Source: Microthyrium microscopicum
Lineage: Eukaryota; Ascomycota; Dothideomycetes; Microthyriales; Microthyriaceae
DNA: 64,000 nucleotides
Direction of reading: 5' to 3'
Assembly (NCBI GenBank): GCA_010405405.1
Contig: MU004245.1
Location: forward strand, 375,256 to 439,255
Part shown: one piece after another, positions 27,319 through 58,654 of the stretch
Layout of the letters: every line of letters begins with the position of its first letter
Position numbering within the stretch: position 1 is the stretch's first letter
Program-made: the position numbers and the translations under genes
The notes under the pieces: model-generated
Seen by the model: the letters and a program-made list of their open reading frames with translations, nothing else
Told to the model about the DNA's origin: nothing
Database searches by the model: none

Positions 27319-29936
27319 GATTTAGCCTTGACTAGTTCCACCGTTACATAGTAGATACTGGCACATGTTATGCTAATACAGCTACCTCTACAACAGCTAT
27401 TTAATATATAAGATTTTGGCCCCAACCGTTAATGTCTATGTCTAACTCCAAGATTCCCAAAATGTCTAAGTTATTACGTAAGCAAGACTTAGTAGAAGAT
27501 ATATCCTAATTTAAGATACTACTAAATATAGGTCTTAAAAAAAGCCTAAAAGATAATAACGCCCCTAAATCTAAAAAGATAATATCCTTAATACCCTAAA
27601 AGATAATAATAAATACTAAATATGCTTAAGGTATAATAAGTCTTAAGTACTACTAGATTTAAGGTTATAGCCTTTCTTTTAATAAAAAAGTAAATATATA
27701 AACGCCTTCTAGCTATTTTATTAGTTTTTTCTCTTATCTTCTCTGTTATCCTTTCTTCTCCTTAATCCTCTTATAGTTCTTAGCCTCTTATTATCTCTTT
27801 ATATATATAATAATCTATTAAGTTATTATAGAATTGTTATAAGAAGTTTAAAGTAGAAAAGGCTCTCTAAAATTTAGCAATTTAGCTTTATATTTAAATT
27901 CCTCTATTATTCTATAAGGCTCTAGCCTATAAAGATAGTTCTTTTTAAGTAGTTCTAATTTTTAATAGCCTTAAGTACTCTAAAAAGATTATTAGGTAAG
28001 TAAGAATATTAACTCTCTAAGAACGTACTTAATTACCTAAGTTTTTTATTAAAGATAAAGCTTTTGCTTCTTTTCTTTCCTTTCTATAATAATTTCCCTT
28101 TCTTTAATCTTAAGTATAACTCTTACTTTAATCTTTTATTTTTTTATATACCTTATATCTTAAATAGCGTCTATTTTAATAATAAAGACTATAATAAGTT
28201 ATACCTTTATAAAATCTACTAGTAGTTTATTATAACTTACTACTTTACTTATATTAATTTATATTTAAAGTTATAGTATGTTAAAACCTAAGTAAATATA
28301 GAGAATATAATAAACTATCTAATTAATATAAATATTATAATATTAATAAAAAGTATTATCTACTACGCTAATCTTAAAAAAATAGTCTTTTAATTCTATA
28401 TAACCTAACTTTAGTCTAAAAAGTATTTTAATAACTCTAATATCTATTCTAAAGTAGAAATCTAATTTATAATAGTTAACTTATTTAATAAGAGTATATA
28501 GTTTATAACTATATTTACCCTTAGTCTACTCCTTCTACTAAGTATTATTTAAAACTCTTTTAATAAATATTTTAAGATAAGTAGTACTCTTTAATTTAAC
28601 TAATAAATTAAGGTAATTAATAAACCCTTCCTTAATACCTTACTTAATAAGCAAGTTAATATAATTATTACCTTTAATATTCTTATACCTAAGTATTTAA
28701 TAAATATAAATTAGTCTAGTAATTTACTTATAGGCCTTATAGAATATATATATAAACTATTAGGCTATCTTTACGTTAAGATTATATAAAAAAAAGTATA
28801 CTCTCTAATTATTAATCTAAATATAAGTAAAAGTAAAATCTTATAAACCTACGTCTACTTAATCTCTTAAGGCTTAGGCTACTATAAAGGCCTTAATATT
28901 ATATACTAAAGTATGCTATAGTAAGCTAAAATACTACTACTTTTTAGTTAGTATATTAATCTAATAATTTCCTTATTTTAAAGTATAATCCTTAAGTATA
29001 GGATTTTAGTAAAAAAAGGTAGCCCTAACCTTACCCTTAATATTTAAGCTATTAATAAAATAGTAAATATAATCTAAAGTATCTTAAAAAGTCTATAAAT
29101 AGAACCTCTTAGCCTTAAGGTCGCTATAAATAAGATTAAAAATAGGCATACTTTACTAAGGCTTATAAATAAATAAAGAGAGCTTTAATAAACCCTAAAA
29201 ATTAATACCTAAATATAAGGCTTAAAGCTAGAAAACGAGAAGGCGAAATAATAACTAATATAAGGCTTACTATAAAGCTTACCTTATTAATAGCTTACGT
29301 ACTTTAACTAAAAACTTTTTAAGGGCGTGTTTCTTTTAAATAATATAAAATACTACTAATTAAAAGATTTCTAAGATCCTTTATTAAACTAGGAGGAGGC
29401 CTAATTTAACGTTATATATTACTCTTATAATATTAATTTAGCCTCTACTAATAACTAATACTAAGTCTCTTTAAATCGTTTGTAGGGTAGCTACTACTTC
29501 CTTCTAATATTCTTAAATAAAATATTTATATAGAAATATTAATAATATTATAAATTTATAAATTTACCTTAAAGCTATTAAATTAGCTCTATACTTTTTT
29601 AATTTTATAAAGTAACGTAAAATTATAAGGGCCGCGTTAGCCTTTTCTTTCCTTATTACTATATATTTAGCCTAATTTAGATAATTATCTAAATAAACCT
29701 TTAAAATCTTATAAAAGTCTATAAGAAGAATATTAACTTTATTATTATACTTTAAAAAAAAAGACTTTACCTTAAAAATAATAGCGTAAGTCTATAGTTA
29801 TACTAAATAAAAGAGTAAAAACTTCTCTAATATAAACTATAATCTATAAAAAGTAATCTATTAGTAGTTAAAGGTAAGTTCCTTCTAAAGAAACTACTTC
29901 TAATAACTAGTTATTTTACCTACTATAGCTATAATA

Positions 29937-30163
29937 TGTGACGAGCTGCGGAACTCAGAGCGAGCAGATAATTAGATTGTATTCTAGAATCTACGAACGG
30001 GAGAGAGAGAGAAGAAGATCTAGAAGAGCTGCAGATCTACGAGGGATGTAAGTCCGCTTAGCAGATCCTCAGACGCGCTAACCTCCTTAGGTCTAACGCG
30101 TGATCTTGTAATAAGATCTCTCTTACAATACCGCTATAAAGTCTATAAAAAGGAATTATCACA
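29937..30163 (-). repeat. 3' LTR of the Gypsy element
   Basis: A 227-bp direct repeat, about 89% identical to 37364-37590, preceded by the target duplication taata. Confidence 0.92.
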
Positions 30164-30220
30164 CGACCCCCTCCTTCAGCATAGCTCTCCGGGCTATAAA
30201 TTACTAATTATAACTGCTTT

Positions 30221-30286
30221 CCTAATCTATTCTATTCCAATCCGGTCCAGTCTAGTCTAGTCTAGTTCAGTCTAATCCAATCTAAC
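30221..30286. repeat. Pentamer tandem tract (CTAGT-type) inside the Gypsy element
   Basis: About thirteen 5-bp units related to CTAGT/CTAAT lie some 60 bp inside the 3' LTR. Units differ mainly by transitions, so an originally purer array seems to have been altered by RIP. Confidence 0.65.
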
Positions 30287-33200
30287 AAACTTTTGGTAAT
30301 AAATAATATTTCGATCCTTCTATAGTACAACACTAACCTTACTAGTCGTTTAGAGCATCTCGACCTCCGGTCTGTTAAGGTAACTGTTAAGAAGCATTAA
30401 CGAACCCTAAGATATTTTTAGAATACTCCGGTTCTCAAGTTCTAGTAGTCTAGTAGTTAGTGATCCTATTAGTATAGGGGAATTAGTAGTATAATTATTT
30501 ACTCCTCTTAATCAATAAGAACGCTGTTAGAGTCATAATTAACACCGTCGCTAGTAGGCTCTAGTATTAGTGGTATCTAGGTGGGATATAGGCTTAGCTT
30601 GTTGGGGTGCCAAGCGTGAAACTTAGTAATAAGCTCTGGCGCGTTCTTAGCAGCTGTTTAATCATACCATTTAGCTTTATCGTAACTAGTATACTTGATC
30701 TCGTATTATAGCTTTTTATATTAACCGGCGAAGCGACTGTTAACGATAGCGTTAACAAACTATTCGTTGTTGTTTATGATTTCTCTAATGACTACTAGTA
30801 GTGGATTAGTATGCCTAAGTAACTTAGCGTCGTCTATAATATAATAAAGGACCTAAGCGTGGAAGATATTATATATCTTTATAAAAGAGAAGAGATTGAG
30901 TTTATAGGTGACGGCATTAATTTTCTTAATTATATGGAAGGGACCTATATTCTTATCATCTAGAGTCTTTAAGGGATGTGAAGTAAGGTAATTTCGTGTA
31001 TCTAAGCGAACCTAGTTATCTAATAATAGGTCTAGAGCCGCGTGGTGATAGCGGTTGGCGTATTCTGCTTACTAAGCTTAGGCTTAGATTAATTGCTTTA
31101 TTAAGTAATTGTATATCTCGGCGTGACCTTTCTATATCGTATTTATATTAATAGTATCCTTATTAGCAGCTATAAAGGCATTTGTAGGTTTTGGGAGGCG
31201 ATGTAAGGACTCGAGGCCTAAATAAAAGTTAAATCCGTTTTAAGCTTTAAAGAGTATAACTCCTATGGTGGCGTTTATGGCAGAATTGACTATAAATTTA
31301 GCAAAGGGCAGAAGAGCTACTTAGTTATCTTAATCTTAGTTAATAAACGCGCGTAAGAACTACTTGAGTGTGGTGACTGAGATTTCTGTTATGCCGTTAA
31401 TTTTAGGGTGAAATGCTGTATTAAGACGAAGTATTATATTTACGCGTTTATATAAGCGCTTTTAAAACGCGGAGATAAATTAGCTACTGTGATTTGAAAG
31501 AATTATTAATAGTTAGCTAACGAGCTTCCACACGTGGTTAATGAAGGCTAGTACTATTAAGTCTATAGATAGGTCTAGTAATAGGATGAAACGTTAGGTC
31601 TATGTATATTAGTCAACGACTACTATAACGTATTAATAAATTACACCTTAGTATAAATAGTGAGGTAGTAAGATGGCAAAGTTGATAAAGATATCTAATT
31701 ATATACGCTTAAGGAGAGGGAATTGACGTAAGAAGCCTTACTTCTTTTAGTGAACGGGTTTAGTAAACACGTATTTGTAGCCTTTAACAAAGCTCTTAAC
31801 GTCCTACAATATCTTAGGCTATTAGTAATCTTCTTATAGGTAGTAGTAAGTTGTTACTGTTCCACTATAGCCTATAGCTTTATAGCTATACGCGCTTTAT
31901 ATAGCGCGATGCTGAAGCTTATCTTAAGGGATAAAGATCCGATTATAGTAGAGGATTATCTTATCAGCAGCTACTATGTAGTCTTTAAGCTCGATTTGTT
32001 CTCGTTTTGGAGTGCTAAAGGGTAAGAAGAGCTAGTAGTCGGTCTTGGTATAATAAATAGCGATCATTGTTTTATTGTGCTCCGTTACGTTTATAATATC
32101 CTATAGGAATTAGTCGCTATTAAAATTTAGGAATAGGTTATCTCCTAAGGGATTAAGTAGCTCACCCTTAGGCGTCTCGTTGTTACTAAGAGACTCTCTT
32201 ATAAGATTAAGTAGCTTACCTATAGGATTAGAAATATCTAATTCATCTTAAGTAATGGTAGCTAAGTATAGTATTAAGAGGCGGGCGAATTTAATAAGCA
32301 ATATAGCTAGCTTTATTGCGTGTTCCGTATTAAATTAGTATAGGAATAATAAAAGTCAGACTTATTAAGAGACGTAAGGGTTATCGTCACTTTGTAGAAT
32401 ATTTTATAACTGACGGGTGAGGGTATTTACCTTTCCATTAGCCGTACTTAGGCGGTACTTTATTTTGAAGTGAAACTGGGAGAGGAACTTAGCTTATTTA
32501 GCTTATTGTTAAGAGAGACGTTTTGTTATTATAAACGTCTAAAGGTTATAGTAATTAAAGAATACTTGAATAGGGTCGATGGAGCTAAATAGCTTTGGTT
32601 TCTACTCTTTAAATGCGCGAACGATAGCTAGAAGCTCTTTATCGTAAATGTCATAATTATATTCTATTAAAGTCATCTTTTTCGAGAGATACGCGACTAG
32701 ATAAAGTTTCTTATCGTTACCTTTTTAAGAGAGGACCGCGGCATAAACCCAATCCGAGGCGTCTGTCTCTAGCTATATTTCTTTTGTATAATTAAAGTGA
32801 CGTAATATCTTAGCGGATGTGAAGTCTTGCTTTAGCTTCTCGAACGCACGTTCCTTTGGCTCATTAAGGTTTTAAGGGAAGATTACCATAGCGTCCTTCT
32901 TTATAAGTGCTATTAGCGGTGCTGTAGTCTTTAAATATTTAAGAATAAATCAATAGTAGAAGTTGGCAAAGCTAAGGAAAGCTTAAATGTCTTTTATTAA
33001 AGAGGGATGTTGCTAATTAACTACGCTTTAAACCTTTTTTAAGTCTATCTCGATGCCTTTAGTAGTAATAATCAGGCTGAGGTATTTAATCCGTTAAGTA
33101 TTAAATTCACACTTCTGGATATCTAAGTACAATTCTACTTTACCTATTACTTTTAGAACTAAGTGGGTATAAGCGGTGTAGCCAGCTTTAGTATTACTAA

Positions 33201-36200
33201 AGACTAACAGATCGTCTATATAGCCTATAACGAAGTTATTTAGGTAATCGATTAGAATATAATTAAGATAAGCTTAGAAGGTCCTTAGGGCTTTGGTGAG
33301 GCTAAAGGGCATAACTTTAAATTCGTATAACTTATAACGAGTTAGGAATGCGGTTTTATATTCGTCGTTAGGTTTAATGCGGATATGTGTGAAGGCGGCG
33401 ATAATGTCGAATTTAGAGAAGTATTTTGCATAATAGATATAAGTAAGTGTTTTTAATAGCTACAAAGGAACATTACGATTCTTTTATATAATCTTATTGA
33501 GTCTATAATAATTAATATAAACTTAAATTCCTTCTTCTAGCTTATATACATATAATATTAATACGGCGTAATGTGATTTACTAGCTTAAACTTAATTTTG
33601 ACTAAGTATTTAATTAACGTATTATTTAATAACAAGGGATTCTTAATAACCTAAGCTATTATAGTGGCGTTTAGGGATCGTAGCGTCCAAAATAATATTA
33701 ATAGAGTAATCTTATTTACCACAGTATGGTGCGAGTTTATTACCCAATTTTGGGTCGAAGACGTCTATATAATGGTGATATTTCTTTAGTAGGTGTTTAA
33801 GAATCTCGTCTCGTGAGAGAGGAGGCTTATTATACTTCTCTCGTTATTTTTTAAAATCCTTAGGTAAGATTTTGCTTAAGTTGATAGCAACGTCTTCCTT
33901 TAGTATAGGATCTAGGTCTAGAGGTTTCTTTTCCTTTTTATCTTTAAAGTCGTCAGGCCAGATTTCGTTAAATTGCCAGCCTTATTCTAGTAACTTAACG
34001 AAGGCAGTAGTACTAACCATAGTGACGTTTTTAAAGCGAGGGTCTGTCAGATTAACTGAGCGGCCTTTACAATCCATTAAGATTAGGCGGCCTATTAATA
34101 AGCAGTATATAAGGTAGTGGTCTAAGTTGAAGTAGATTTGCTTCTTGCCTCCTTTAAAAGTAACCTCGTGGAGGTCGATCTAAGGGTTGCTAAGGATAAG
34201 ATTATAGCTAGCGACGTTTATAATAAAGTAGCAGATTTATTCGATATGCCTTCCTAAACGGACGTTAACTATAGCGGCTTTATCGACTTTCGTGATAGCC
34301 TTACCGTTAGCTAATTGTATGATTTAGGGGGCGGAGAGATCAATAGTAGGGATCCTGTGTTGTTTAATAAAGTTAAGATGAATGATTCCCATCGCTCCAC
34401 TGTTAATGTTTATAAGGATGTTAATTTTCGAGTAGTAGCCTTATTTTAGAAAGAATACGGTACTAGAGGTGGTCCATTAGTCACTTACTATAGGTATGGC
34501 GACTACTTCTTAAGGACGGAAATCGTATGCCATAGAGGCGAGGGATATCTTAATGACAGCTAGTTTAGTGTCGTCGAATATGATAGGCTTTAAAAATGAC
34601 GCTCGTTAAAAATCGCCTTCTAGGCGCTAAATAGTCTTATCGACCTTATATTGAATTTATTCTTTAAAGAGAACTGGCTCAGGATTAGGTTCCTCCTTCT
34701 TCCGTCGTTGATTATGCGCTTCTTGCTTATTTAGCTCCTTTGCGCGTTTCTGTAGAGGAGCTTTCAGTTTTCCACATCATTATCGTAATCGTACTTATTA
34801 TAATTATCCTCTATAGTTGGGGACTGAGGAGATTAAATAGTAATTCAATCGTAGATAGCGGTAAACTTTATAATAATAGCGGTGACCTTCAGTTAGATTT
34901 TGGTATCTAAAAGGGCGTCTTAATCTTTATATAGTGTTGAGTTATGCCAATAGCTATGGCCCTTTTCTTTATACTTTATGTAACGGTTGTTAGCCTTTAA
35001 GGCATTATAGATGTTTAAAGAGCGGTTAAACTTTAATTTCCATCCGCTACCCTCAGCTACTAGACGATTGTTATTATCGTAGCTTTGTGGATTGGTAAAA
35101 AAAACGTATTTAATATAACGAGTAATAGTATATAAGCTCTTAAGGAAGTTGGTAAATGTTTTCGATTTTATGAAGAGCACTCTTTTTACGAACTTTAGGA
35201 GTAGAAGGGAACGTATTTTGATAATCTTATCTTAATTACTAAGCTTGGCTTCTCGTAAGTTCTTTAAGAAGCGGGCTAAGAATTGTTTAAGCTTCTTAGT
35301 AGGCTTCATCATAGCTTCCTAACTTTTAAGCTAGGTTTTAGCGGTGATATAACCATCTTTAATACCATACTCACGGTTTAAATTAAACTATATCTCTATT
35401 ACGGATAAATATAGGTTAGTTAACTTATGGTCACTTCGTTTGTCGATAGTACTAAACGCTTAATCCTCTGTCGCTCCTTAGACGACTTAAATCTTAAAGG
35501 TTTTTGTAAGATAGACTTATGCGTTGTTATTAAGGTAATTTAATACTTTGCCTTTCTAAGCGCGATACTTCTACTTATCCTTTCTTAAGAAGAGTGAAGG
35601 CTTATCGCCCTATACTTTAAAAAGAGAGGCGCTACCAACCAAGTTAAGGTTAGAGAAGGAAGTAGTTCAACGCAAGTTTAGTACCCTTAAAGGTATATTT
35701 AGGTTAGGTTAATCTATGTCTCGAGCTAAGGAGGTCTAGCGAAATAGATCATTATCTACTAACTTATCGCGATCAAGATAGGGATTAGTCGCCTTAATAG
35801 CTAAGGGTTTCTTTTAGAGAGCGTTAATCTAAACTTAAAGGATGGTAGCTTTGTCTACCTTCTCTTATAGAGCCTTATAGTATTTACCAATCTTGTCAAC
35901 GTGGGTAGCAAGTGCTTCCTTAAGCAGATCGTTATTATATTATAGTTCTTGTGCCTTCTAGCGGGTGGTTACTACTTCCTTAAAGATAATAGTATTGTCT
36001 TAAATTTACGCTTTAAGGTAAGTAATCTACTTTACGCGTTTATCGTTAGTTTTAGCTAAGTCTTATATCTCTTCTTAAGCTTCTAAAGCTTCTTTCTAGA
36101 GAGTATAGATTAAATTTATATTGCGAGCGTTTATATTTTATTTAATTTTAAAGAGGTAGGCTATGGTTTGAGAGGCCGATAATGAGGCGTAGAGCTATAT

Positions 36201-37363
36201 AATTAAGTTGTCTAGTGTAATTTCTCCTTTTAATAGACGTTCCAAGTCCGCACTCGATTTGATTAAGTAGTAAGAGTGATAGCGGAGGTCTAATTACTTT
36301 TCTTTACGACGGAGGTATACTCTTATATCTTTTAGCTCGTCGCCTTCTTTACTAGGCATCTTTTGTACTTAAGTAGCTTAGAAGATCAGAAGGTTCTTAT
36401 TGACGGTTAGAGTGACTAGTCGATTAAGGTCTGTTACTATAGGGTAGTAAAATATTAATACGGGTAATACTTTAAGGCCTTCAACTTACTAGCGTAGTTC
36501 CATTAGCTATTCGTGTATTCTAAAAGAAAGTCTAGTGTTATTATTAGGTTGGAAAGGAGCTGGTAACCGGTTATCTCTTATGTTCATTTAGTTTAATAAA
36601 GTTATTCGACTAGCATTTTAAGGGGCGTCTTCTGACGCTTTAGTCTCTTTACTTTTACGGCCTCGTTCTAATAGATAATTATCTTCTAACTCGTCTTTAT
36701 CTTCTAATAACGCTCTTAAGTTTAGTTTTAGCGGTTTTAATAGTCTTAAGACGCTCTTTACCGAATCTATTACTTTCTAGGTAGTATCCGGTTATACTAG
36801 ATCCTAAGTGTTGGGTCCGCTTTAATACTTGGCACGTATAGCGGAGGGGCGACGCGATAGAGATAGGTAACGCGAGCGTATGGGAGATAAAAATAAGTAC
36901 CGATTATTAGGCTAAGTACGAGTAATTAAAGACGGCGAGCGGGCTATATAACCATTAACTTAAGTCTATTAGTTAAGAGCCTTATTAGCTATAGTTATAA
37001 ATAATGAAGAAGGGTACTAGGAGGGAACGCTTATTTATTTGGTGTGTTTTAATAGTAAATGTGTTAAGTATAATTACGGATATTTAGTAGTAGTATAGAA
37101 GATAAACTTTAGTGTTCTGTAGAACTAAGGATGAGGGGTAATTAACGCTTAGACCGTTAATAGGTCAAAGAGTGTTAGGGAATCCTAACGCTTTAATTGG
37201 ACAAGGGGTTAGTGGAGCTAATAGATTTGGTGAATCTATGAAGGATCTTTAATAGGATTTAAGATCACGCGTGCGGAATATTGATCTATACAGGCGCTTC
37301 TTTGGAAGTAAATTCTAGGGTGCGCGGTGTAAGCGCGCGGGTGGTTGAAAGGTTCGTAGATTA

Positions 37364-37590
37364 TGTGACGAGCTGCGGAACTTAGAGCGAGTAGATAATC
37401 AGATTGTATTTTAGAATCTACAAACGGGAGAGAGAGAGAAGAAGATTTAGAAGAGCTGTAGATCTGTGAGGGATGTAAGTCCGCTCGGCAGATCCTTGGG
37501 CGCGCTAACCCCCTTGGGTCTAGCGCGTGATCTTGTAACAAGATCTCTCTTACAACACCGCTGTGAAGCCTGTGAAGAGGAATTATCACA
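37364..37590 (-). repeat. 5' LTR of the Gypsy element
   Basis: A 227-bp direct repeat paired with 29937-30163, followed by taata. It is less TA-shifted than its partner. Confidence 0.92.
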
Positions 37591-40500
37591 TAATATTATT
37601 AATCTATATAATTTTACTATTAATACTAATTTCTTCTCTCTCTGCTCTATATTCTTATTTAATAACTAAATTGGCGTTAAATAAGATATATAATAATAAT
37701 AATAAAGGTAAGCCTTATAAAATACTAATACTTATATTTTATATTTCTATATAATAATTTAGGGTCTTAAGTTAAGCCTTATACTTAATTAAGAACTTAA
37801 AGATTTAACTTACCTAAATACTTCTTAGCTTACGCCTATGTAGATTATAAATTATATAGATATATAAGATGTAGTTAAAGGCTTTACTAATATTTAAAAA
37901 TAAGATTATCGTAGTAAATCCTTAATCCTAAGCTAGGTAGATATTCTTAATTAAATAATATAATATTTTATCTATACTCTAAGCCTTTTATCCCCTAAAA
38001 TAACTACGTAGCAAAATATCGTAAGTATTAAAAATATAATATAGCCTTGTAGCTATATATAATTCTATAAGCTTCCTAATTATATTTAGTAAGGTAATTA
38101 AGTAATAAGATTTTACTTATTTTAAATTATTCTTAATATTTTTTACTAGCTTATAAAGCGCGATAATAGTCACTTCTTTAAAGTACTAAGGATAATATTC
38201 TAAGTATATAAAAGCGTTAAATAAGCCTATATACGCTTATAAAAAAGAAACTCTAACTATATTAATATATCTATCTTTGTAGAAGAATACCTTTTTAAGA
38301 GCTTCTATAGCTACTCTATCTAACTTATATACTTTACTAGACTTTATATTCTTTACTGCTTAATATACTTTCTACTCTATAAAATTATAAAATTTAATAG
38401 GCTTAGAGTATCTTAATTCTAAGTAATTAATAATATCCTCTAAGTCTATAGTAAGTAGTAGTAAAAAAAATTTTACTAAAAGAACTCTACTTTTATTCTC
38501 TAGTATAATAGTAAAGCTATTACTATTTCTAAGTTAAATAATCTTAAAGGGATCTTTCCCTTTAACGTACTTTTTTAATAAACTTAATAGTTTCTAAGCA
38601 GAGACTTAATCCTTTAATAGCTTAGTAAATACTAGTTCTTATAATAGGTTCCTCTATTATTTTATAGTTTATTAACTCTAGTTCTTTAACTAGATTTAGC
38701 GCGCTTTCTAAGCTTTTTTTTAAAGATTCTTATAATAGCAGTTTTACTTTACTTTTTATAGTATTTATCTCTAATTATTAAGTACTATAATTATCTTAAG
38801 GAATATTTAATTATATTTTCCTCTAAAAAAGTATATCCTTAAAGGTAGAGTAGCTTTCTTAGTTACTTCTTAAATTACGTAAACTATATATAAGGTATAA
38901 TTATCTAAAGCTTTGCGTAAGTTTAGATTAACTAGCTTATTAAGATAGTCCTTAATATAACTCTAAAAGGCTTCCTTATTATACTTATTCTATTTTACTT
39001 ATAATATTTAATATTTACTTCTAATACTAATTTTAAGGATTATATATAATAGCTAATAGTTACTTACTACTTATAAAGCGTAATTATAAGAAAGGAAGTA
39101 TTAAAATCCCTAAGCCTAAAGTTATACTAATACTAGCAAAAAGTCTATTATAAAACTCCTCTAATTCTAGCGAGGTAAAATCTAAATCTTTATACTAACT
39201 AAGCTAAAATTAACTAATCTAAGAGAGAATATAAGATTAAGAACTAAGATATAGTATTAGCCTTAGGTGCCTATACTACTCTATAAGTTATAATAAATAT
39301 TAAAGTCTTTAACTATGTACGTAAGTCTCTATAGTACGTTAAGAAAGGCTTAGTAGACTACTAGTAGAATGTCTACTTCTTTTTAGCTAGCGTCTAGCGT
39401 ATCTTAATATATATTAGCAAAGTATACTAGATATTACTAAGTATTAATCTTTATTAAATACTAGTCTTTCTTATTATAAAGAATTTTCTAGTTCTTAATA
39501 TAGAGGTTATGGCTAATATACGTAGCTACTCTTAGTATAGGTATATAATTAGACTATACTAAGTAGTATCCCTTAAATGCCATAGTATAAGGAGCTACTC
39601 TATATTTATTAACCCATGGTTCCTAGATAGTAATTATATTAAACTTAAGTAGCTTGTTAGTTACTATAAAGTTCTTAAGCTATTGCTAGTTTAGGTAGGT
39701 CTTATTAGCATTATATTAAAGGATATTAAGACTAGAACTCTAGACGACTATAGGAGAGTTTACTAGAAGAGGTATATTTATCTAAGAAAGAACTTCATTA
39801 TACTAAGATATAATAATGCTTAGCGTAGGTAATAAAGACTACTACGTTGCTAAAGGTAACGCTACTTATAAGGATAGAGTCTAGAATAATGAGTCTATAC
39901 TTAGTTATTTAGGTGCTTAGTTAATTAGTAGACTTTACTTACCTTTTTACTAAGCTCTACTAAGGCTTTATCTTCTTTACTTGTTATATTCTTATTACTA
40001 TCTAAGGAGGGTTTATCTAGGTCCTAATTACTAAGTTCTATAGGTAGTGCTATTAACTTAATTAGACTAGCGTAAAAGACTATAACCTTATAGTCCTTCT
40101 TAGCCTTCTCGTTTTTAATACTCTTATAGATAACTTTAGCTTCGTAAATAGTAAGGGACTTAGCTTAAGCCTATTCTTCTTTCTTTGCTAACCTAGCTTC
40201 TTTCTCTTCTACTAGACGATCTACCTTTTCTTAGTTAAGAGCTTCTTAATCTATTATCTTCTACGTCTTTATACGTTTATAACGTTTATTATTCTTACTT
40301 AAGTTAATACCTTTAGGTTCTTTACGTTTTAAAGTAGTAGACTAGATTTCATTAGAGTATAGTAAGGTTAGTATATATAGTACTTATTCTAGCTAGGTTG
40401 GTTAGATCTTTCTTAGGCGTCCTAGTCTATATTTCTAAGAATTACTAGCATTATTAGATTTATCTAAGGTAGATGCCCCTTTGCTTTTCTTTTTATAATT

Positions 40501-42686
40501 ACTATTTACTCTGTTAGCATTAGAGTTAGTTACCTTTCTCTTATTCTTTTTACTACTTATAGATTTAGAGTTACTAGATAAGGAATTCTTATAGATTTAA
40601 GGGTTTTTTAGACTTAGATATTTAGTAAAGAGGAATACCTTACGTGCTATAATCTTTTTTACTTCTTAATTAAGTTTGTAGAGCTTAGCTCTATTAACTT
40701 TAATTTAGGTAGTAGTAAAAATAACTAGGTCCTAGTCCTTTTATTCTTAGTCTTAGCTTAACGTAATATTATATCTATTACTTAGTAGCGTATAAGTTTA
40801 AGACGCGTTATTTATATTTTCCTTTCTTTTTATAAACGTATAGTCTTTAGCGTTTTTTAATAAAGAAGAATTTTTATCTTCTTCGTCTATTAGCTTATTA
40901 GCAAGTTTAGTCTTACTCTTAGACTATACTTTAGTAATTTAAAGTATTAATGTTGCCTATTAGTTAGTTTAGAGGTTTAGTAGACGCTCTAAGTCTTCTA
41001 GATTCTCTTATATACTACTTAAGTTCCTACGTATTAGCTAAAATAAGGTATTATTATCTAGATACTTATAAGGCTTATTCTTAACTCTTTTTGCTAAAGC
41101 TTTAATTGCCTTAATTTTCTTTATATAAGTATTATTATTAGACTAATAGATAATAAAGTTGTATATTATATATAAAGTAACTTTATAGGTATATACTTAT
41201 ATATTATAGTTACTTATATACTTATTATATATAGTTAGGCGCTAGTAATAAAGTCTATAGTAATAGAATTATTAGTAGTTATAGTATATCTTAGCTTTAA
41301 AGTTATTAATATAGAATTTAGCTCTTTTAGGAGCTCTCTAAACTTAGAATGTACCTTTAAGTATATAGTTAATATTTAAGGGGTTACTAAAGGCTATAAT
41401 TATAGAAGAATAAGGTTTATCTTTTTTCTTTATATTTAGCTAACGTAACTAGTAGACGTAATTAAAGGAGTCTATGTAAGGATTTTATTTAAAGATAGAA
41501 GTAGTAATTACGGTAAGGTCCCTAAGGACCTTATCTAGTTAATTAAGGAAGATATTATAGATAATAACGAAATAGATTTATATATTAAACTTAGCTCTTT
41601 TAAATACTAGTAGCTAGAGGTATTATGTTCTATTAGCTCTTGCTAAGTCTATAAAGGTATTAAACTTAAGTTTAATGTTGCCTTTATGTTTTTAAGTAAC
41701 TATATAAAGGCTAATAAGGTCTTAGTTAACCTTTATAAGCTTTTTATAAACTAAGTCGTAGAGGAAGCCTTATCTAGAAGTCTCTCTATATTTATTAGCG
41801 TTAGATAATTTTATAAATTTAAGGGTTATAAGAGGATTAACCCTCTTCTTACTATTAGATTAGTAAAGGCTATAGAAGGGTTTATTAGTATTTATTAGTT
41901 ATTATTCTAGGGGTCTAATACTAGCTACTTATATAGTGAGTTAATTAACTTAGTTTAAGATATTATTAAGCTTTTACTTATTACATAGCATTATTTAGAG
42001 GAATTTATATTGCTTATTCTTATGCTATTAAATTTTAGTTTATAAGAGTATATTAAACTCTTAGTAAAGTTTATTTAAGGTATGTAGTTTAGCATTATTA
42101 GTAAAGAAGAGTTTAGCTATTTTAGTAATTCTAATCACATTATTAATTATGCTACTAGTTTTATTAAAAGAGGGTTTAGCACTAGATGCTATGATTATTT
42201 ATCTAGTTGCTATTACTTAAGACTTAAAAGCTCTAAGGTAGTTTATTATTTCTATATCTATAGTATTATTAGGCTATGCTTTTACTCTTTAGTCTTAATC
42301 TTTACTTTACTAGCTAGGCTAGGGGGTAGAGTTTAAGATAGAGATTATTTTAACTTATTTAGCTATTTATTACTTAAATAATATGCTTATTTTAAGTATT
42401 AGATAGAGTATAGCTCTTCTTTTAAGGATATAAAGATAAATATAGAGTATATAGGTATAAGTTAAGTTATTATAATAGGGAAATTAGGGGATTTTGGGGA
42501 AAGGTATATACTTATAACCTTCTAAGGACGCGTCTAGATAAATAACGCGTAATATCTTAATAGCGCCTTAAGTTTTTAAAAATTAGAGAACGTAGAGAGT
42601 GATAGCTTAGTTAGCTAGATCTTTTAATGCAATAAAGTATTTGAGATTTTAAAAATTTGGATGATGTGTAGAATGTTGTTTTTTCA

Positions 42687-44701: not shown

Positions 44702-46963
44702 ATGAGCTCTCCAAAGCTTAATAGCGCTCTACAATCAACGCCCAGTTCACTGTCCAGCTTACCTATTGGTAGCTCCATTTGCCAAAACTGCTCAAATCTG
44801 GACGCTCAACAAGCTCTTCGTTACTCAAAAAAGGTAGCTTTCACCGTCCCTCAGGCAGTTGGATCATCAATACCCACGGAAGTGGTCCTCAATGTATCGA
44901 ATTACGCAGAATACAAACAATCACGCGACGCAGGCTGCAAATTTTGCAAACTGATCTGTAGCGCATGTCGCTTATTCAAACTGGACTCAAAGGACCATTA
45001 TTTGAGCATCAGCTTGAGGAGCGACAGAGCCCCTTTGATTGCGTGTCAATTCCAGGGGTTTGAAAAGATTCAGAGATGCTTCATTTTTGGGGCAAAGCCC
45101 AGCGAGTGGATCTGCAATGTGTTCCCACCCATGGACATACTACCGGCGCGACCTGCATCTGACGAATCATTCGACTTCTTGAAGAGTCAACTGAACGAGT
45201 GTGTACGTCAGCATCCGGAATGTACGAACAGAGAAGAATCGAGAGCCCCTAAAAGGCTTCTTTACGTGGGATCAATAGATGAACCTCCCCACCTGTTGAG
45301 ATCAGATTCGCATTCTCGGAAGCGATATGCTGCGCTCAGCTATTGCTGGGGTGGAGATCAAGCACTCAAGCTTACGAAACATACAGAGAAGGCCCTGAGT
45401 AACTCTATATCTTGGGATGATCTTCCTGTTCTACTCCGAGATGCGATTGTGGTTTGTCGGAGACTGCAGATTGACTACCTGTGGATAGATTCGCTATGTA
45501 TTACGCAAGGTGATGACGAAAGAGAGGAATGGAGAAATGAAGCTGTACATATGGCTGATATATACGGCAATGCTTTCGTGACTCTATTCTCAGCATCTTG
45601 TTCTAGCCCTCGAGAGTCATTCTTGCAGTTTGAGGGAGACTTTACTAGAAAGACTTTGGTGCTCGAGCGGGACGCATCTGGGGCACCGATGACGGGTATG
45701 TTTTCAGTGGTGGTCCAGACTTCCTATGGCAGACCCTGTAACACGATAGTGACTAACGATATCTTAGTGGCTCGTCGAAGTCATCCCAAGGGTTTGCATA
45801 CAAATATTCATTCTGAAAATAGTTTGGATCCACTGGAAGAGCGAGCTTGGGCGTTTCAAGAATTCCATCTCTCTCCGCGAGTAATTGCTTACACATCGAA
45901 CGAGATACAGTGGCATTGTCAAAGGCTAAACGCTTGTGAGCCTGGCTGTGCTGAGACAGTTTTCGAAACGGTCTCCATACAAGAATATGATGACGAGAAT
46001 AGGATGTTTTTGAGAAATCATTTGGCCCTCACTGCGCAAACACTTGATACCACCGAATTGTTCAGAATGTGGCATAGGCTAGTGGAGCGATACTCAAAGT
46101 GTCAGTTGACCTTTCCTGGCGATAGACTGGTCGCTTTGGCTGGTCTAACATCAAAATTTCACAGTCGGTCGAAATCAGAATACATCGCTGGTTTATGGAA
46201 AGACAATCTCATCGAGGACTTATTATGGGAGAACCATTTTTCGAATATGCCTAGGCCGGTGCTGCAGCAATATATCGCGCCAACGTTTTGCTGGCCTTCC
46301 GTACAGACCTCAGTTTTGTTCCAAAGGAAGTATAGAATGAAGTCCTATGTGACAATCGAAGCCATAGAATGTTTCCAGAGGACAGCAGGATCTGACAATG
46401 AAGTGTTTGGCGAAATCACAGGAGGATATCTGAGAGTAACCGGGCACCTTTTTCGTGCGATCTTGGAGCTGGAGCAGAAGCCAGAATCGACTGGTAGGAG
46501 CCATCAAGTGCGAATAGACATCCCAGAGTCTCCCTTCTCTGGGAAAAGAATGTATATGACCACAGACGCAGACTTGGAGAACACGAAGGTAGTCGTGGAT
46601 TCTGGAGAAATGATAGCCACGGCCAGACGCCGCGGCGTAGCTACCACCTCGAACGAGGATTTCTTGCCGTGCGAGGTGTGGTGTCTAAGGCTAGCAGGCG
46701 GTAAAGAACTAGATGATGATCAAGATCTCGGTCTTGACAATGTTACCCAGGAATTCCACTTGTTGCTTGTGGCCTCATCCACCGGAAAAGGCTGTTACGA
46801 GAGAATTGGCACGGCCCGTCATGGGTTTATGGATACCTGGGAAGCTCAATTCGCAGAGATTAAGGCGAAGCCGACTTCACACCATACTCTGTTCTCCGTG
46901 GATCGTGCAGGGCTGAGAGAATACCTGGCAACATATCCCAAGACAACGGTCACAATATTGTAA
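44702..46963 (+). CDS. Heterokaryon-incompatibility (HET) domain protein
   Basis: Intronless, 753 residues. A Cys-rich N-terminus (CQNC near 28; CKFCKLIC near 80) is usual for these proteins and may bind metal. The HET domain starts with RYAALSYCWGG near residue 208. It continues with LPVLLRDAIVVCRRL and YLWIDSLCI, and closes with ERAWAFQEFHLSPRVIAY near 380. The C-terminal 350 residues are less conserved (FPGDRLVALAGL near 470). HET proteins trigger cell death when incompatible hyphae fuse and are thought to have TIR-like folds. No NACHT or other partner domain is fused here. Start chosen at the first ATG; the upstream sequence closes with stops. Confidence 0.92.
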   Translation: MSSPKLNSALQSTPSSLSSLPIGSSICQNCSNLDAQQALRYSKKVAFTVPQAVGSSIPTEVVLNVSNYAEYKQSRDAGCKFCKLICSACRLFKLDSKDHYLSISLRSDRAPLIACQFQGFEKIQRCFIFGAKPSEWICNVFPPMDILPARPASDESFDFLKSQLNECVRQHPECTNREESRAPKRLLYVGSIDEPPHLLRSDSHSRKRYAALSYCWGGDQALKLTKHTEKALSNSISWDDLPVLLRDAIVVCRRLQIDYLWIDSLCITQGDDEREEWRNEAVHMADIYGNAFVTLFSASCSSPRESFLQFEGDFTRKTLVLERDASGAPMTGMFSVVVQTSYGRPCNTIVTNDILVARRSHPKGLHTNIHSENSLDPLEERAWAFQEFHLSPRVIAYTSNEIQWHCQRLNACEPGCAETVFETVSIQEYDDENRMFLRNHLALTAQTLDTTELFRMWHRLVERYSKCQLTFPGDRLVALAGLTSKFHSRSKSEYIAGLWKDNLIEDLLWENHFSNMPRPVLQQYIAPTFCWPSVQTSVLFQRKYRMKSYVTIEAIECFQRTAGSDNEVFGEITGGYLRVTGHLFRAILELEQKPESTGRSHQVRIDIPESPFSGKRMYMTTDADLENTKVVVDSGEMIATARRRGVATTSNEDFLPCEVWCLRLAGGKELDDDQDLGLDNVTQEFHLLLVASSTGKGCYERIGTARHGFMDTWEAQFAEIKAKPTSHHTLFSVDRAGLREYLATYPKTTVTIL

Positions 46964-49553: not shown

Positions 49554-51460
49554 ATGTCTTACTTTCCCGGCCAGCAAGGCTATCACGGCGGTGGACAACC
49601 GCCCCCAAACGGCGGATGGCAGCAACAACCACCACAGGGCTACCCGCCTCAAGGAGGCTATCCGTAAGCTTCCATACATGCCCATGTAACAACAACATCC
49701 TTTGCTAACCTAAATCTTTTCTCTAGTCCTCAAGGCTATTCGCAACCTCCTCCTCAACCCTATTACGGCAACGCCCCTCCTGCTCCTCAATACGGTGGTT
49801 ATCAACAGGTCCGACATTCGTACGACATCATACACACATTCGCTAACGTCCTTGAAGGGTCCTCCTCAACCTCAGTACGGTGGTCATTCTCCCCGCCCTT
49901 ATCCTAGTCCTGGTCCAGGTATTTATTCTTAATCTCCCAGTATGTCTAAAAGAAAACATCCTCATAGAAGTTTGCAGCCCTCCCTTCAGCACAGCACAAT
50001 GCTTATGTACAAGGAAATCATAATGCGCCCCCTCCCCCACCAAACAACGCCGTATCGTTCGGTCATGGCGCGCCGAGCGACTACAAATTCCAGTATTCCA
50101 ATTGTTCGGGTCGACGGAAAGCACTTCTTATCGGTATCAACTACTTTGGTCAGCGTGGTCAACTTCGCGGATGTATAAACGATGTCAAAAATATGAGCGG
50201 ATATCTTAACAGTCACTTTGGATACAAGAGAGAGGACATGGTACTCCTCACCGATGATCAACAGAATCCAATGAGTCAACCTACCAAAGCCAACATCCTT
50301 CGTGCCATGCACTGGCTGGTCAAAGATGCTCGACCAAACGATTCGCTCTTCTTCCACTATTCTGGTAAGGCTTCTAACAAATGGCAAAGCCACAGCTCTA
50401 ACTGTATTAGGTCACGGTGGTCAAACACCCGATCTAGATGGCGACGAAGAGGATGGTTATGATGAAGTCATCTACCCTGTGGATTTTAGAACAAATGGAC
50501 ACATTGTCGATGACGAAATGCATAAAATCATGTAGGCAAAAGCCTCGGTCTCTAAATGATCTTGCTAATCGAATTTTTAGGGTCCAAGGTCTTCAACCTG
50601 GTGTAAGGTTGACAGCAATTTTCGATTCCTGTCACTCTGGATCTGCGCTCGATCTGCCATACATCTACTCCACACAAGGCATGCTCAAAGAGCCAAACTT
50701 GGCGAAAGAAGCCGGACAAGGTCTGCTTGGTATCGTATCTTCCTATGCTCGTGGAGATTTGGCCGGAATGGCTACCAGCGCTTTCGGTTTGGCCAAGAAG
50801 GCTTTCAAAGGCGACGATGTGTATCAAAAGAACCTCCGAACAAAAACTTCTCCCGCAGATGTTATCATGTGGAGTGGCAGCAAAGACTCCCAGACCTCGT
50901 ATGTTTTCCCTGATAATCAACCCTTTCTCCCGGTGACCAGTGCGGAGGAGATGAATTTGCTCTGGCGGAATCAATATGCGCTTCAAAGAACAGCCTTCTG
51001 AACGCATATTTGATGCTTTACGGCTTCACGATTTATGATATAAAGTTCATGTACTATAGCAATTGAGTTTATACCTGCCTTGAAGGCGAATGATTTGGCT
51101 AGCAATCCTGCAGCCAGCATTCGTCTTCAGGGCAATGAGGCACGTTGGGTCTACTGGTCCAAGACGACTCACGACTGACTTCTTTCGAATTTCTGCTAAC
51201 TTTTCAACAGAGCTGATGCCTCTATTGCTGGTCAAGCTACGGGTGCCATGTCTTGGGCTTTCATTAATGCATTGAAAAAGAACCCACAGCAGAGTTATGT
51301 TCAGCTACTCAACAGCATCCGCACCGAACTTGAGGGCAAATATGACCAAAAACCACAGCTCAGCTGCAGTCATCCTCTTGGTAGGCGTTCTCATAAATTG
51401 TTTTCAGCTAGAGTAGGCAGCTAACAACGTGCAGATACCAACCTCCTTTATGTCATGTAA
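49554..51460 (+). CDS. MCA1: Metacaspase (type I, peptidase C14 family)
   Basis: Eight exons: 49554..49663, 49727..49808, 49858..49918, 49990..50364, 50411..50531, 50581..50898, 51211..51380, 51435..51460; 420 residues with consistent phases. The N-terminal ~120 residues form a Gln/Pro/Gly/Tyr-rich prodomain. The caspase fold follows: [10 protein letters not shown], catalytic His211 in FHYSGHGGQ and catalytic Cys267 in DSCHSG, then [23 protein letters not shown] and the closing DTNLLYVM. It is a calcium-dependent cysteine protease cleaving after Arg/Lys, linked to stress, ageing and protein quality control. Intron 6 (50899-51210) is 312 nt, far longer than the others. Read-through into it stays open for 34 residues to 51001 and would remove the end of the protease domain. 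Confidence 0.93.
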
Positions 51461-54899: not shown

Positions 54900-55490
54900 A
54901 CTTGGTTTAGCCGAGTTGTCATTTTGTACAAGACGGTGTAGCTATCAGCCAATTGTAATTGGGATTATATGTAGATCCCTCCTGTAAGATTCATAATCAA
55001 ACAACTTTTTCAAAGACAGGTTGAAGGGAGGAGTACTGCCCGGCAAGGCGTGAAGAATCAATCAACAGAAACTGCTCTATATCTGCGCATACTGTACTTC
55101 CATACACGATGCCTACTCAGTGGTCTCTCGCTCACTGGTATCGTCAAAATGCTCTCCATCTATATGCTTCACTTTCAAGAGTGCGCATATTTGACCTGTG
55201 ATCCGGCGATTTCAATCACTGAAGCTAGAGAACGGTCACTGCGGATTAGCTCGACTACGCAGTCACTAGTCCGCACATATTCTATTCCAACGATTGGAAC
55301 AGTCACTTCCCTTCGTCTATTTCATGATGAATACGGCGCGAAGCATCTTTTGAGTGACAGAAATCATAGTAACTCGTGGTAGAATTTCTTCGATATCATG
55401 TAGTTGTAATTCATAGCTGGATTGTGCCTGCAAACCACATCAAACTGTCTCTCAAACAAACACATATATGTCTCGTTATTTGTCTTCCCT
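54900..55490. other. Intergenic upstream of the tandem pair
   Basis: About 590 bp. An unrecognised 110-residue open frame lies at 55050-55382 and shows no similarity to the neighbouring pair. The rest should hold the promoter of the first pair member. Confidence 0.45.
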
Positions 55491-56087
55491 ATGACGGACC
55501 CAAAATACTGTTCCTATGAAGTACTGAGTTGTGACTGTGCCAAATTCAGGTATGCGCGCCACGATGAGACAAAACCAGATGCATGGATGCTGTACAGTTA
55601 CCGATACCCGCAAATCAAGAGACAACATATCAAAGGACGAGATGTTGATATCTTGATGGTCAGTAGAAGATGCTATTCGCAAGGGAAAAGTCACATCGAA
55701 AACAACGTTATGAGCAAACAGAGACGTCGGACTGAAGACATTGACTTACGAGACGCTGCTATTCTGGGCTCATTTCTTTCTTTGATGCAGGACACTTCTG
55801 CAATCAAAAGACCAAAAGATGATACAGTGGTTATTGAGGCTGGCGCTGGTATCCAGGACACACACTATCCCTTGGGGTTTGACGAGGATTATTTCAACGA
55901 TACTCAATTGATTATCGGTTGTGTGAGCACGGTATGTTTTCTGGCTACACCTGCTTAGAATATTGGAAACCTAACGAAGAGAAAGTATGTCAATAGAAAA
56001 TTCAATCTACACTCAGGCTCGGGGGACCAAACCATTGTTCAGATGTGGAAGGATGAACATCCTAGAGAAGCTAAATCTTCAAGATGA
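55491..56087 (+). CDS. Unrecognised protein, tandem-pair member A
   Basis: Two exons, 55491..55931 (441 nt) and 55986..56087, giving 180 residues. The 54-nt intron was placed by comparison with member B: both second exons begin TAT GT and both end in a W-K/T-x-x-x-P-R-x-A tail (QMWKDEHPREA here). The in-frame ATG at 55491 (MTDPKYCSYEVL) matches the start of B. Shared landmarks are YEVLSCDCAKF, SRRCYSQGKSH, GSFLSLMQDTSAI and DTHYPLGFDEDYFND. There is no signal peptide and no TM segment, so it is probably soluble and intracellular. The paired CDC cysteines and the conserved Cys-x4-H spacing are suggestive only. I do not know this family and assign no function. Confidence 0.72.
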
Positions 56088-56415
56088 TCAAACGGATTAT
56101 TTTCATCACTAAGGTTGAATGTGTTGATTGTAGGTTTGCCTGATCGTCAATTGACCAAAGTTCGCTAATTCACATATTGCCGTTCAAACGAATGGATCAA
56201 TCGCTTCAAACCCAACTGCGATTATGCTGTGAAGTAATTCCATTGATAAGTAGTATATAGAACTACGAGATCTGTCTCTATATTCCTCAATATCATGCTA
56301 CAGATATCCAAAGCCGGACTTTGTTCATATCCAATCACCAAATCACCACTTCCGAGGAGTTCTTATTTCGAGATTGCTTCTGAGCCGCCGGATATCTTCC
56401 AGATATTTTGGTATC

Positions 56416-56996
56416 ATGGGTCAGGTTCATGCTGGCTACTGCTACTACGAAGTGCTGAAGTGCGATTGTGTCAAGTTTATGAAAGCACATCCACGTCCTG
56501 GATCGAAATCCGACAGCTGGCTGTCTTACCACTACGAATTGCCTGAGATCAAACCGCTAGAAAACATGGCAATAGAAGATACCAATTTCTTGATTATCAG
56601 CAGAACGTGCAAAATGCAGGGCCGCAACCATGTGAATGACAGGATCTCGAGGATCAAGGCGGTTGAGCACTGCAATGCAGAAGACAACGCTGCACTGGGC
56701 GCTTTTCTTGGTCTGATGCAATACACCTCTGCGATTAGGAAAGGTCATACACCGTTGATCAAAGCTGGCCACAAAGTTCAAGAGACACACTACCCCTTTG
56801 GATTCGATAAAGACTACTTCGAGGACACATTTGTGATGCTGAACTGCCTACATACAGTACGTTTCGTGTCTATACAGCGAAGTCACTCTCTTTACTAATG
56901 AATGTCAAGTATGTGCCAGCAAGTATGGATCCAAACCCTGATAGCAAGACTATCTTGGATAAATGGACGGAAATGTATCCTAGAAAGGCACCATGA
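56416..56996 (+). CDS. Unrecognised protein, tandem-pair member B
   Basis: Two exons, 56416..56856 (441 nt, exactly as in member A) and 56910..56996, giving 175 residues. The 53-nt intron is in the same position and phase as in A. Start chosen at ATG 56416 (MGQVHAGYCYYEVL); the upstream extension of the frame has no ATG. Conserved with A: YYEVLKCDCVKF, SRTCKMQGRNH, GAFLGLMQYTSAI, ETHYPFGFDKDYFED and the end DKWTEMYPRKAP. The middle (residues 25-50 and 85-100) diverges, so the duplication is old or under changing selection. Soluble, no signal peptide. Function unknown. The 328 bp between A's stop and B's start probably holds B's own promoter. Confidence 0.74.
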
Positions 56997-58654
56997 AGGT
57001 CGGTACTATTCTTCTACTGATCGCCAGTCGCACATCTGTTCAGAAATTAGACTTAATGATTCTTGGATAATTCTCATATGCAATTAAAGGTATTCGCGAG
57101 ATTTAAGATACTTGTTGAAATGGTTGAGCTTCAATCATATGAGGCTCTGGTTAGGCAAAGTTAATGCAATGGAGATTTTAGTTCTAAAATTTTCTCTGAT
57201 AATCAAGCGATCATTGAGATAAATTTGGTCAGGCGTACATGCGAAGAAAAGAACTGTCATTGATACTACCTTGAAGATGATGTAAGTATCAGATTCTTCC
57301 CAAGATAAACCGAATGTCTAGCTCGAGGTAGACCCATGTGATGATCAAGGGGTCATACATCGAAAAGAGTTTCTTCCCATCCTAAAGTGGCTGGTGATAA
57401 GGCTGTCCCATCCGTTTTTGGTCAACCTACTAGCATAGCCTTGTCAATATATGATCATGTATACCTCTACCAAGACAGGCATACCCTACATAGTTCACAA
57501 GATCCGCTAGGAAACCAGCCTTCCTTCCTACTCGTATCTCTGAGGGATGTAACATCCTGGTCTGCATATAGTGAACAGTGAAGGATGCGGTTCTTCTCAG
57601 CCTAAAAGCATACTTTTGCGGAGTGTTTGAACGCACGTTTTCCCCTCGTGTATGTTGAATGTTCAATGATAGGCTATTTGACATCATCGAGGTTCTCTTC
57701 CTTCTTCCTATCGCAAATATCTTCTGGCCCATCGCAAGACCATCCGATGTTGTTTCTAAATTGATATTTGTTCCCCATAACCAGGTTCTCAAACGGTCAT
57801 CAACTGCTGACCAGTCTTTCGGAGTTGTCTCCTTCTATATTCTATTGTTTCCCCGCAGTTCCGCAACTGCGGTGTAGGTCAAAGGTTCACGTAGTTTGTA
57901 TTGAATGGCTACAGGGCTGACAGGCCCGACACTACCGGAAAAATGTGACGGTCTCAAATGACTATGTTACGACTCGTTGCAACAGTTACTTCGCGTATCA
58001 CTATGGACCAGCCTCTTCAATTACTTCTCAAATTCCAGAATTGAATATTGTTCATTGTTTAGTCGGATTCAACATAGATTGTATCTCAAGTTTTATGTTT
58101 ATATGATATTGTGTATACATGTGAAAGGGCACTCCATTCTTTCATCACTGTTCGTCTGGATATGCCTGTACCGGCCCTTGCAGAGATTCCGAGCCATGTG
58201 CTAACATCCTATTTCCTGGAGTCGCTGTATGTGCCTCCCAATACCAAGCTTTGATCTACCAGATCTACCCATGGTCAAAACTCATCCTGCAAATCCTTGT
58301 TCCTGAAAATAGTGGCACAGCCATTGGAGGAATGGACAACTGCCCGTTATAGCTAGCACAGCCAAAAGAAACTGTCGAATAAGCTTCAGTCATACTCGCA
58401 CACGCATCAGACTGTCGCTGACTTGGAAGCTCATGCCCTTGGAGCAGGAAAAGAGGAGTCGTCACTGCTTTTCTTCACCTTGTAACCTAGTTGTAGTACA
58501 CAATTCAAGTTTAGATCTCTTGGAAGATCCTCCATGGCCAGATCGAGTTTCATGTGCGGCGCTGTTATCAGATATTAAGGTCCGGGAAGCCCAAAACCTT
58601 TTCATTAATCATAGCATCAATTTAATATACAACCATACAGCAATCGAGTTTACA
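56997..58654. other. Intergenic, no supported gene
   Basis: About 1.66 kb. I looked for a third copy of the tandem family and for exons of the downstream esterase and found neither. Open frames such as 57430-57792 (minus) show no recognisable features. The right end is the esterase promoter. Confidence 0.45.

Follow-up and report, generated by a model that had tools for sequence, protein, structure and literature searches.

A tandem pair of spliced paralogous genes without recognised relatives in Microthyrium microscopicum

The window, by which we denote the whole stretch of 64,000 nt of Microthyrium microscopicum (Dothideomycetes, Microthyriales) DNA that was analysed, corresponds to positions 375256-439255 of a contig of 634,672 bases and contains two adjacent genes on the forward strand, each with two exons and one short intron. 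The features are as follows, in positions of the window.

55491..55931, + strand: gene 1, exon 1 (147 codons), the start of BT63DRAFT_461269
55932..55985, + strand: gene 1, intron (54 nt, phase 0, GT..AG, CTAAC)
55986..56087, + strand: gene 1, exon 2, stop codon included (alignment and codon analysis)
56416..56856, + strand: gene 2, exon 1 (147 codons)
56857..56909, + strand: gene 2, intron (53 nt, phase 0, GT..AG, CTAAT)
56910..56996, + strand: gene 2, exon 2, stop codon included (alignment and codon analysis)

The two genes are separated by 328 nt, and their products have 180 (gene 1) and 175 (gene 2) residues, corresponding to 20-21 kDa. Each intron has one branch-point-like word, namely CTAAC in gene 1 and CTAAT in gene 2. 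An earlier note on this DNA had described the pair by these coordinates, by introns of 53-54 nt in the same phase, by second exons starting with Tyr-Val and ending in W....PR.A, and by four common motif blocks (YEVL.CDC.KF, SR.C..QG..H, G.FL.LMQ.TSAI and THYP.GFD.DYF), all of which we located in the sequence. It had also emphasized that both first exons are exactly 441 nt long. The lengths are indeed equal, but length is not strictly conserved, since within this exon each copy has four codons that face gaps in the other and the differences cancel; the equality is therefore partly a coincidence. We regard the gene anatomy given here as very probably correct. The spliced translation of gene 1 agrees with the deposited protein BT63DRAFT_461269 at every residue, which means that the depositors had called the same intron. 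For gene 2, a search of a collection of 5.8 billion proteins did not find a deposited counterpart, using as query either gene 2 alone or a profile of the two proteins. This suggests that gene 2 is unannotated or was modelled with a very different length.

The global alignment of the two proteins has 72 identical residues among 171 aligned (42% protein identity) and a score of 336.5, compared to -35.9 +/- 13.1 with a maximum of 24 for 500 shuffles of gene 2. Identity at codon positions 1, 2, and 3 amounts to 95, 116, and 69 of 171 (56, 68, and 40%), respectively, where 27, 28, and 25% would be expected from composition. The divergence previously seen in the middle segments is also present, with only 1 of the 13 aligned residues in alignment columns 76-90 being identical. 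Gene 2 has six cysteines, which include counterparts of all five in gene 1, and the genes have in common both tryptophans of gene 1, 7 of its 10 tyrosines, and 2 of its 6 histidines. If the 72 identical columns were placed at random among the 171, the chance of all five cysteines being conserved would be 1.2%, a figure that is not overwhelming and that a structural core would give as well.

We then estimated selection between gene 1 and gene 2 by maximum likelihood, using a purpose-written codon model (GY94, F3x4). The resulting dN/dS is 0.32, with dN of 0.59 and dS of 1.8. The value of 1 is rejected (2dlnL 22.1). Among the fixed values tried, 0.2, 0.3, and 0.5 are no more than 1.92 log units away from the best, and those of 0.15 or less are farther off. 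By the NG86 method, dS is saturated. A ratio near 1 had been named beforehand as one of the outcomes that would count against both genes being real and selected. The ratio observed, the retention of five cysteines out of five, and the agreement of the gene 1 splice with that of the deposited protein all favor the claim. The missing deposited protein for gene 2 would fit a reading of the pair as pseudogenes or chance open frames, which we consider extremely unlikely in view of the alignment, the codon-position pattern, the shared intron, and dN/dS, as well as the deposition of gene 1 with the same splice. The observation made in the earlier note is accordingly confirmed and its interpretation is supported.

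GC3 of the two genes (0.44 and 0.54) lies inside the range of 0.44-0.65 of the eight other open frames compared. Neither gene has a RIP signature, the composite RIP index being -0.67 and -0.72. Between the copies, transitions are 34 versus 38 for A/G and 31 versus 21 for T/C, with T in slight excess in gene 1. These results do not support RIP as what made the copies diverge, although the test is weak at such age.

Outside the exons, similarity of the two introns does not exceed that of plain shuffles (score of 13 versus 11.9 +/- 2.1), and neither does that of the downstream DNA of the two genes (19 versus 18.6 +/- 2.1). When positions 54900-57400 were compared to the window by blastn at E up to 0.1, the sole report was an exon match of 41 bases with E of 0.011. 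The plain reading of the sequence is that the pair results from a local tandem duplication of one gene, with both copies intact and each interrupted once, by introns that agree in position and phase. The duplication is old and both copies have been kept, because dS is saturated by NG86, introns and downstream DNA have no similarity beyond plain shuffles, and selection is purifying. No third copy was found at a significant E in the genome of 36.9 Mb and 20 contigs, where the best candidates, three per search, were scored. One weak match on contig C18 (E of 0.148, 24%) was taken as chance; judged by eye, its open frame looks both charged and coiled-coil-like.

With E allowed up to 10, no credible match came from Pfam, NCBIfam, PHROGs, PADLOC, or PDB sequences, where the queries for PDB were gene 2 and then the two-sequence profile. 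A clear family hit, also named beforehand as counting against the pair, thus did not occur in these collections. This agrees with the statement in the earlier note that no known family matches, with the qualification that distant relatives could escape the protein search. In the protein collection, 0 of 3 candidates scored for the gene 2 query and 1 of 178 for the profile of both genes, the latter being gene 1 itself. As a control, the adjoining GDSL lipase gene was used as query on the same collection and returned 214 proteins including itself. The 120 matches listed include Eremomyces, Venturia, and Tothia; hence, the collection does contain fungi. The protein search is seeded on 5-residue words and the two paralogues have no such word in common, so that relatives equally distant could be missed. 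Pattern scans of DNA, each with two short peptides, matched 24 stretches in prokaryote genomes and 58 in viral contigs, and none of these was confirmed. Residues 31-90 of gene 2 have a weak local likeness to DUF4459 (PF14673), which we attribute to chance: its 13.3 bits (E of 0.081) are far below the curated cut-off of 27, and gene 1 has no match. Matches to protein A46 (E of 0.57 and 0.3) and nitric oxide dioxygenase (E of 1.2) are not credible either. In the literature covered by our searches, we did not see a description of the gene pair. At the search sensitivity reached, these results suggest a family restricted to the Microthyrium lineage.

Two alternatives concern the origin and relatives of the pair and are compatible with the explanation that we prefer below. 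The pair may belong to a known fungal family from which it has diverged very far, having homologues below search sensitivity. Neither paralogue would find the other in a protein search given the lack of a common 5-residue word, and the scans with DNA patterns covered the prokaryote and viral collections only; the failure of all the family and structure collections above to give a credible match even at E up to 10 argues in the other direction. We hold such a distant kinship to be a serious but tentative possibility. The gene could instead have arisen de novo, or as a taxon-restricted gene, within Microthyriales and then been duplicated; in favor of this, no homologue was found beyond the pair, where the search with the GDSL neighbor returned 214 proteins including itself. 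The conserved motifs, the cysteines, and a dN/dS of 0.32 over a long divergence look like an established folded protein, and age and origin are unreadable without outgroups; such an origin seems unlikely to us.

As for the proteins themselves, the highest mean hydropathy over 19 residues is 0.66 for gene 1 and 0.63 for gene 2, and the first 19 residues have means of -0.15 and 0.28, respectively. As measured by hydropathy only, both proteins lack membrane segments and their N-termini are not hydrophobic, and we infer for this reason that the products would be small soluble intracellular proteins. Many fungal effectors are small, cysteine-containing, arranged in tandem, and without known relatives, and the pair has all of these properties. 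Nevertheless, a secreted effector-like or toxin-like pair is very unlikely: there is no hydrophobic N-terminal stretch in either protein by hydropathy, five cysteines in the 180 residues of gene 1 and six in the 175 of gene 2 do not make a cysteine-rich protein, and selection is purifying on average, not diversifying. We also ran AlphaFold2 on exon 1 of gene 2 together with exon 1 of gene 1, and on full gene 1 together with exon 1 of gene 2. With mean pLDDT values of 35.0 and 29.0, respectively, both models are unusable and too poor for a fold search.

The pair lies at 430.7-432.3 kb of a contig of 634.7 kb, and the nearer contig end is about 200 kb away. Its setting in the window is as follows.

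14280-16985, + strand: NLR-like protein with NPHP3_N/NACHT and DUF7791 domains, left of the pair
28001-42000: AT-rich block with a strong RIP signature, left of the pair (GC of 0.22-0.36 per 2 kb, composite RIP index of 0.95-1.80)
44702-46963, + strand: open reading frame of a HET-domain gene, left of the pair
about 49968-51001, + strand: metacaspase, in pieces that look like exons, between the HET gene and the pair
left of the pair: MFS transporter and GDSL lipase
right of the pair: carboxylesterase

Judging from its composition and RIP index, the AT-rich block at 28001-42000 is likely RIP-mutated transposon DNA. The 3' open frame of the metacaspase matches Metacaspase-1 structures with E of 9.3e-27, and its 5' part is the best Peptidase_C14 match of the genome, which has 4 such matches at 3 places. 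Three recognised genes (metacaspase, MFS transporter, and GDSL lipase) stand between the HET gene and the pair, and unrecognised ones are possible. Genome-wide, there are 153 HET matches, a count in which pieces of genes are included, a few of them with internal stops, and for which 150 of 180 candidates were scored; the number of genes may thus be lower because of the pieces or higher because of the unscored candidates. Chance would place a HET match within 9.6 kb in about 8% of cases, and we therefore treat the HET association as a weak lead only.

This setting invites comparison with Neurospora, for which 670 lineage-specific genes have been reported (PMC10684091). The same paper describes lineage-specific genes of Neurospora crassa as clustered with HET-domain genes and located near telomeres, and states that knockouts of 367 lineage-specific genes yielded only three with a sexual-development phenotype (PMC10684091). 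It counts 69 HET-domain genes in Neurospora crassa (PMC10684091), compared to the 153 matches, pieces included, in Microthyrium microscopicum. The pair resembles the Neurospora crassa genes in having no recognisable domain, adjoining paralogues, and a HET gene within a few genes (PMC10684091). Paralogue clustering is seen in the two copies 328 nt apart with no other copy found, and a HET gene does occur within about five genes, at a chance of about 8%. The location at chromosome ends described for the Neurospora clusters is not shared, in that about 200 kb separate the pair from the nearer contig end, where contig ends are not equated with telomeres. In a HET-rich genome, nearness of the pair to HET is not clearly beyond chance, and the likeness to the Neurospora clusters is one of domain content and setting.

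What the analysis establishes is that the two genes exist, that they are related, and that purifying selection acts on them; we infer the remainder of our proposal. The conserved C-x-C, C, H, H, and C residues would form either a fold core or a metal site, probably for zinc, while the divergent middle segment would give each copy its own partner. Each protein would accordingly consist of a Cys/His core, which may bind zinc, and of a recognition segment that diverges between the copies. Expression would be conditional, as in hyphal communication, self-recognition, or sexual development, and the genes would be dispensable in ordinary growth. That the products are intracellular metal- or thiol-dependent proteins is, from the conserved residues, plausible although somewhat short of probable, and we would place our explanation as a whole at the same tentative level. 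Of the possible roles, we find a HET-linked one the likeliest, by analogy with other fungal lineage-specific genes near HET genes, yet it is doubtful. The most far-reaching version is most unlikely; it would make the pair a new family of Microthyriales only, having a fold that is new as well and a metal site of conserved Cys and His, the two diverged copies being a matched pair in self-recognition or the control of cell death, beside the HET gene and the metacaspase.

Fungi commonly carry genes that fit no known family, as the 670 lineage-specific genes of Neurospora (PMC10684091) also indicate, and lineage-restricted pairs of this kind are nothing unusual; interest in the pair is therefore modest until its fold or its function becomes known. 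Should either be found, a new family would be added; for now the pair is one of many relative-less fungal genes. It is nonetheless a small and clean case of a spliced tandem pair without recognised relatives that persists under purifying selection, and it does so some 13 kb from the RIP-mutated stretch.

The DNA preceding the two genes contains a pair of similar blocks.

55274..55309, + strand: block preceding the start of gene 1 by 181 nt, similar to the block before gene 2
56171..56207, + strand: block preceding the start of gene 2 by 208 nt, similar to the block before gene 1

The blocks, of 36-37 nt, have a local score of 32 compared to 18.7 +/- 2.2 for 200 plain shuffles, and 1 of 3000 dinucleotide shuffles reached this score. 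Against 153 real 400-base segments of the window, the upstream stretch of gene 2 had a best score of 31, while that of gene 1 had one score of 220, from a segment overlapping the query itself, and a next best of 31. No other site of the genome is within two mismatches of the block, the two known sites matching by construction. The block was not among the reports of the above blastn comparison of 54900-57400. DNA searches of the genome with 491 and 101 bases around the gene 1 block matched only themselves; as they missed the gene 2 block, they are too insensitive to count. A coding exon was considered and set aside, because the two blocks do not stay in one frame across a gap of one base and we saw no third-position bias (three frames, by eye). 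The block is for this reason left as what may be a shared promoter or control element, with support that is modest and mixed. Closer to gene 1, a short upstream reading frame at 55468-55494 on the + strand ends in a TGA stop codon that overlaps the ATG of gene 1, and it possibly affects translation of gene 1.
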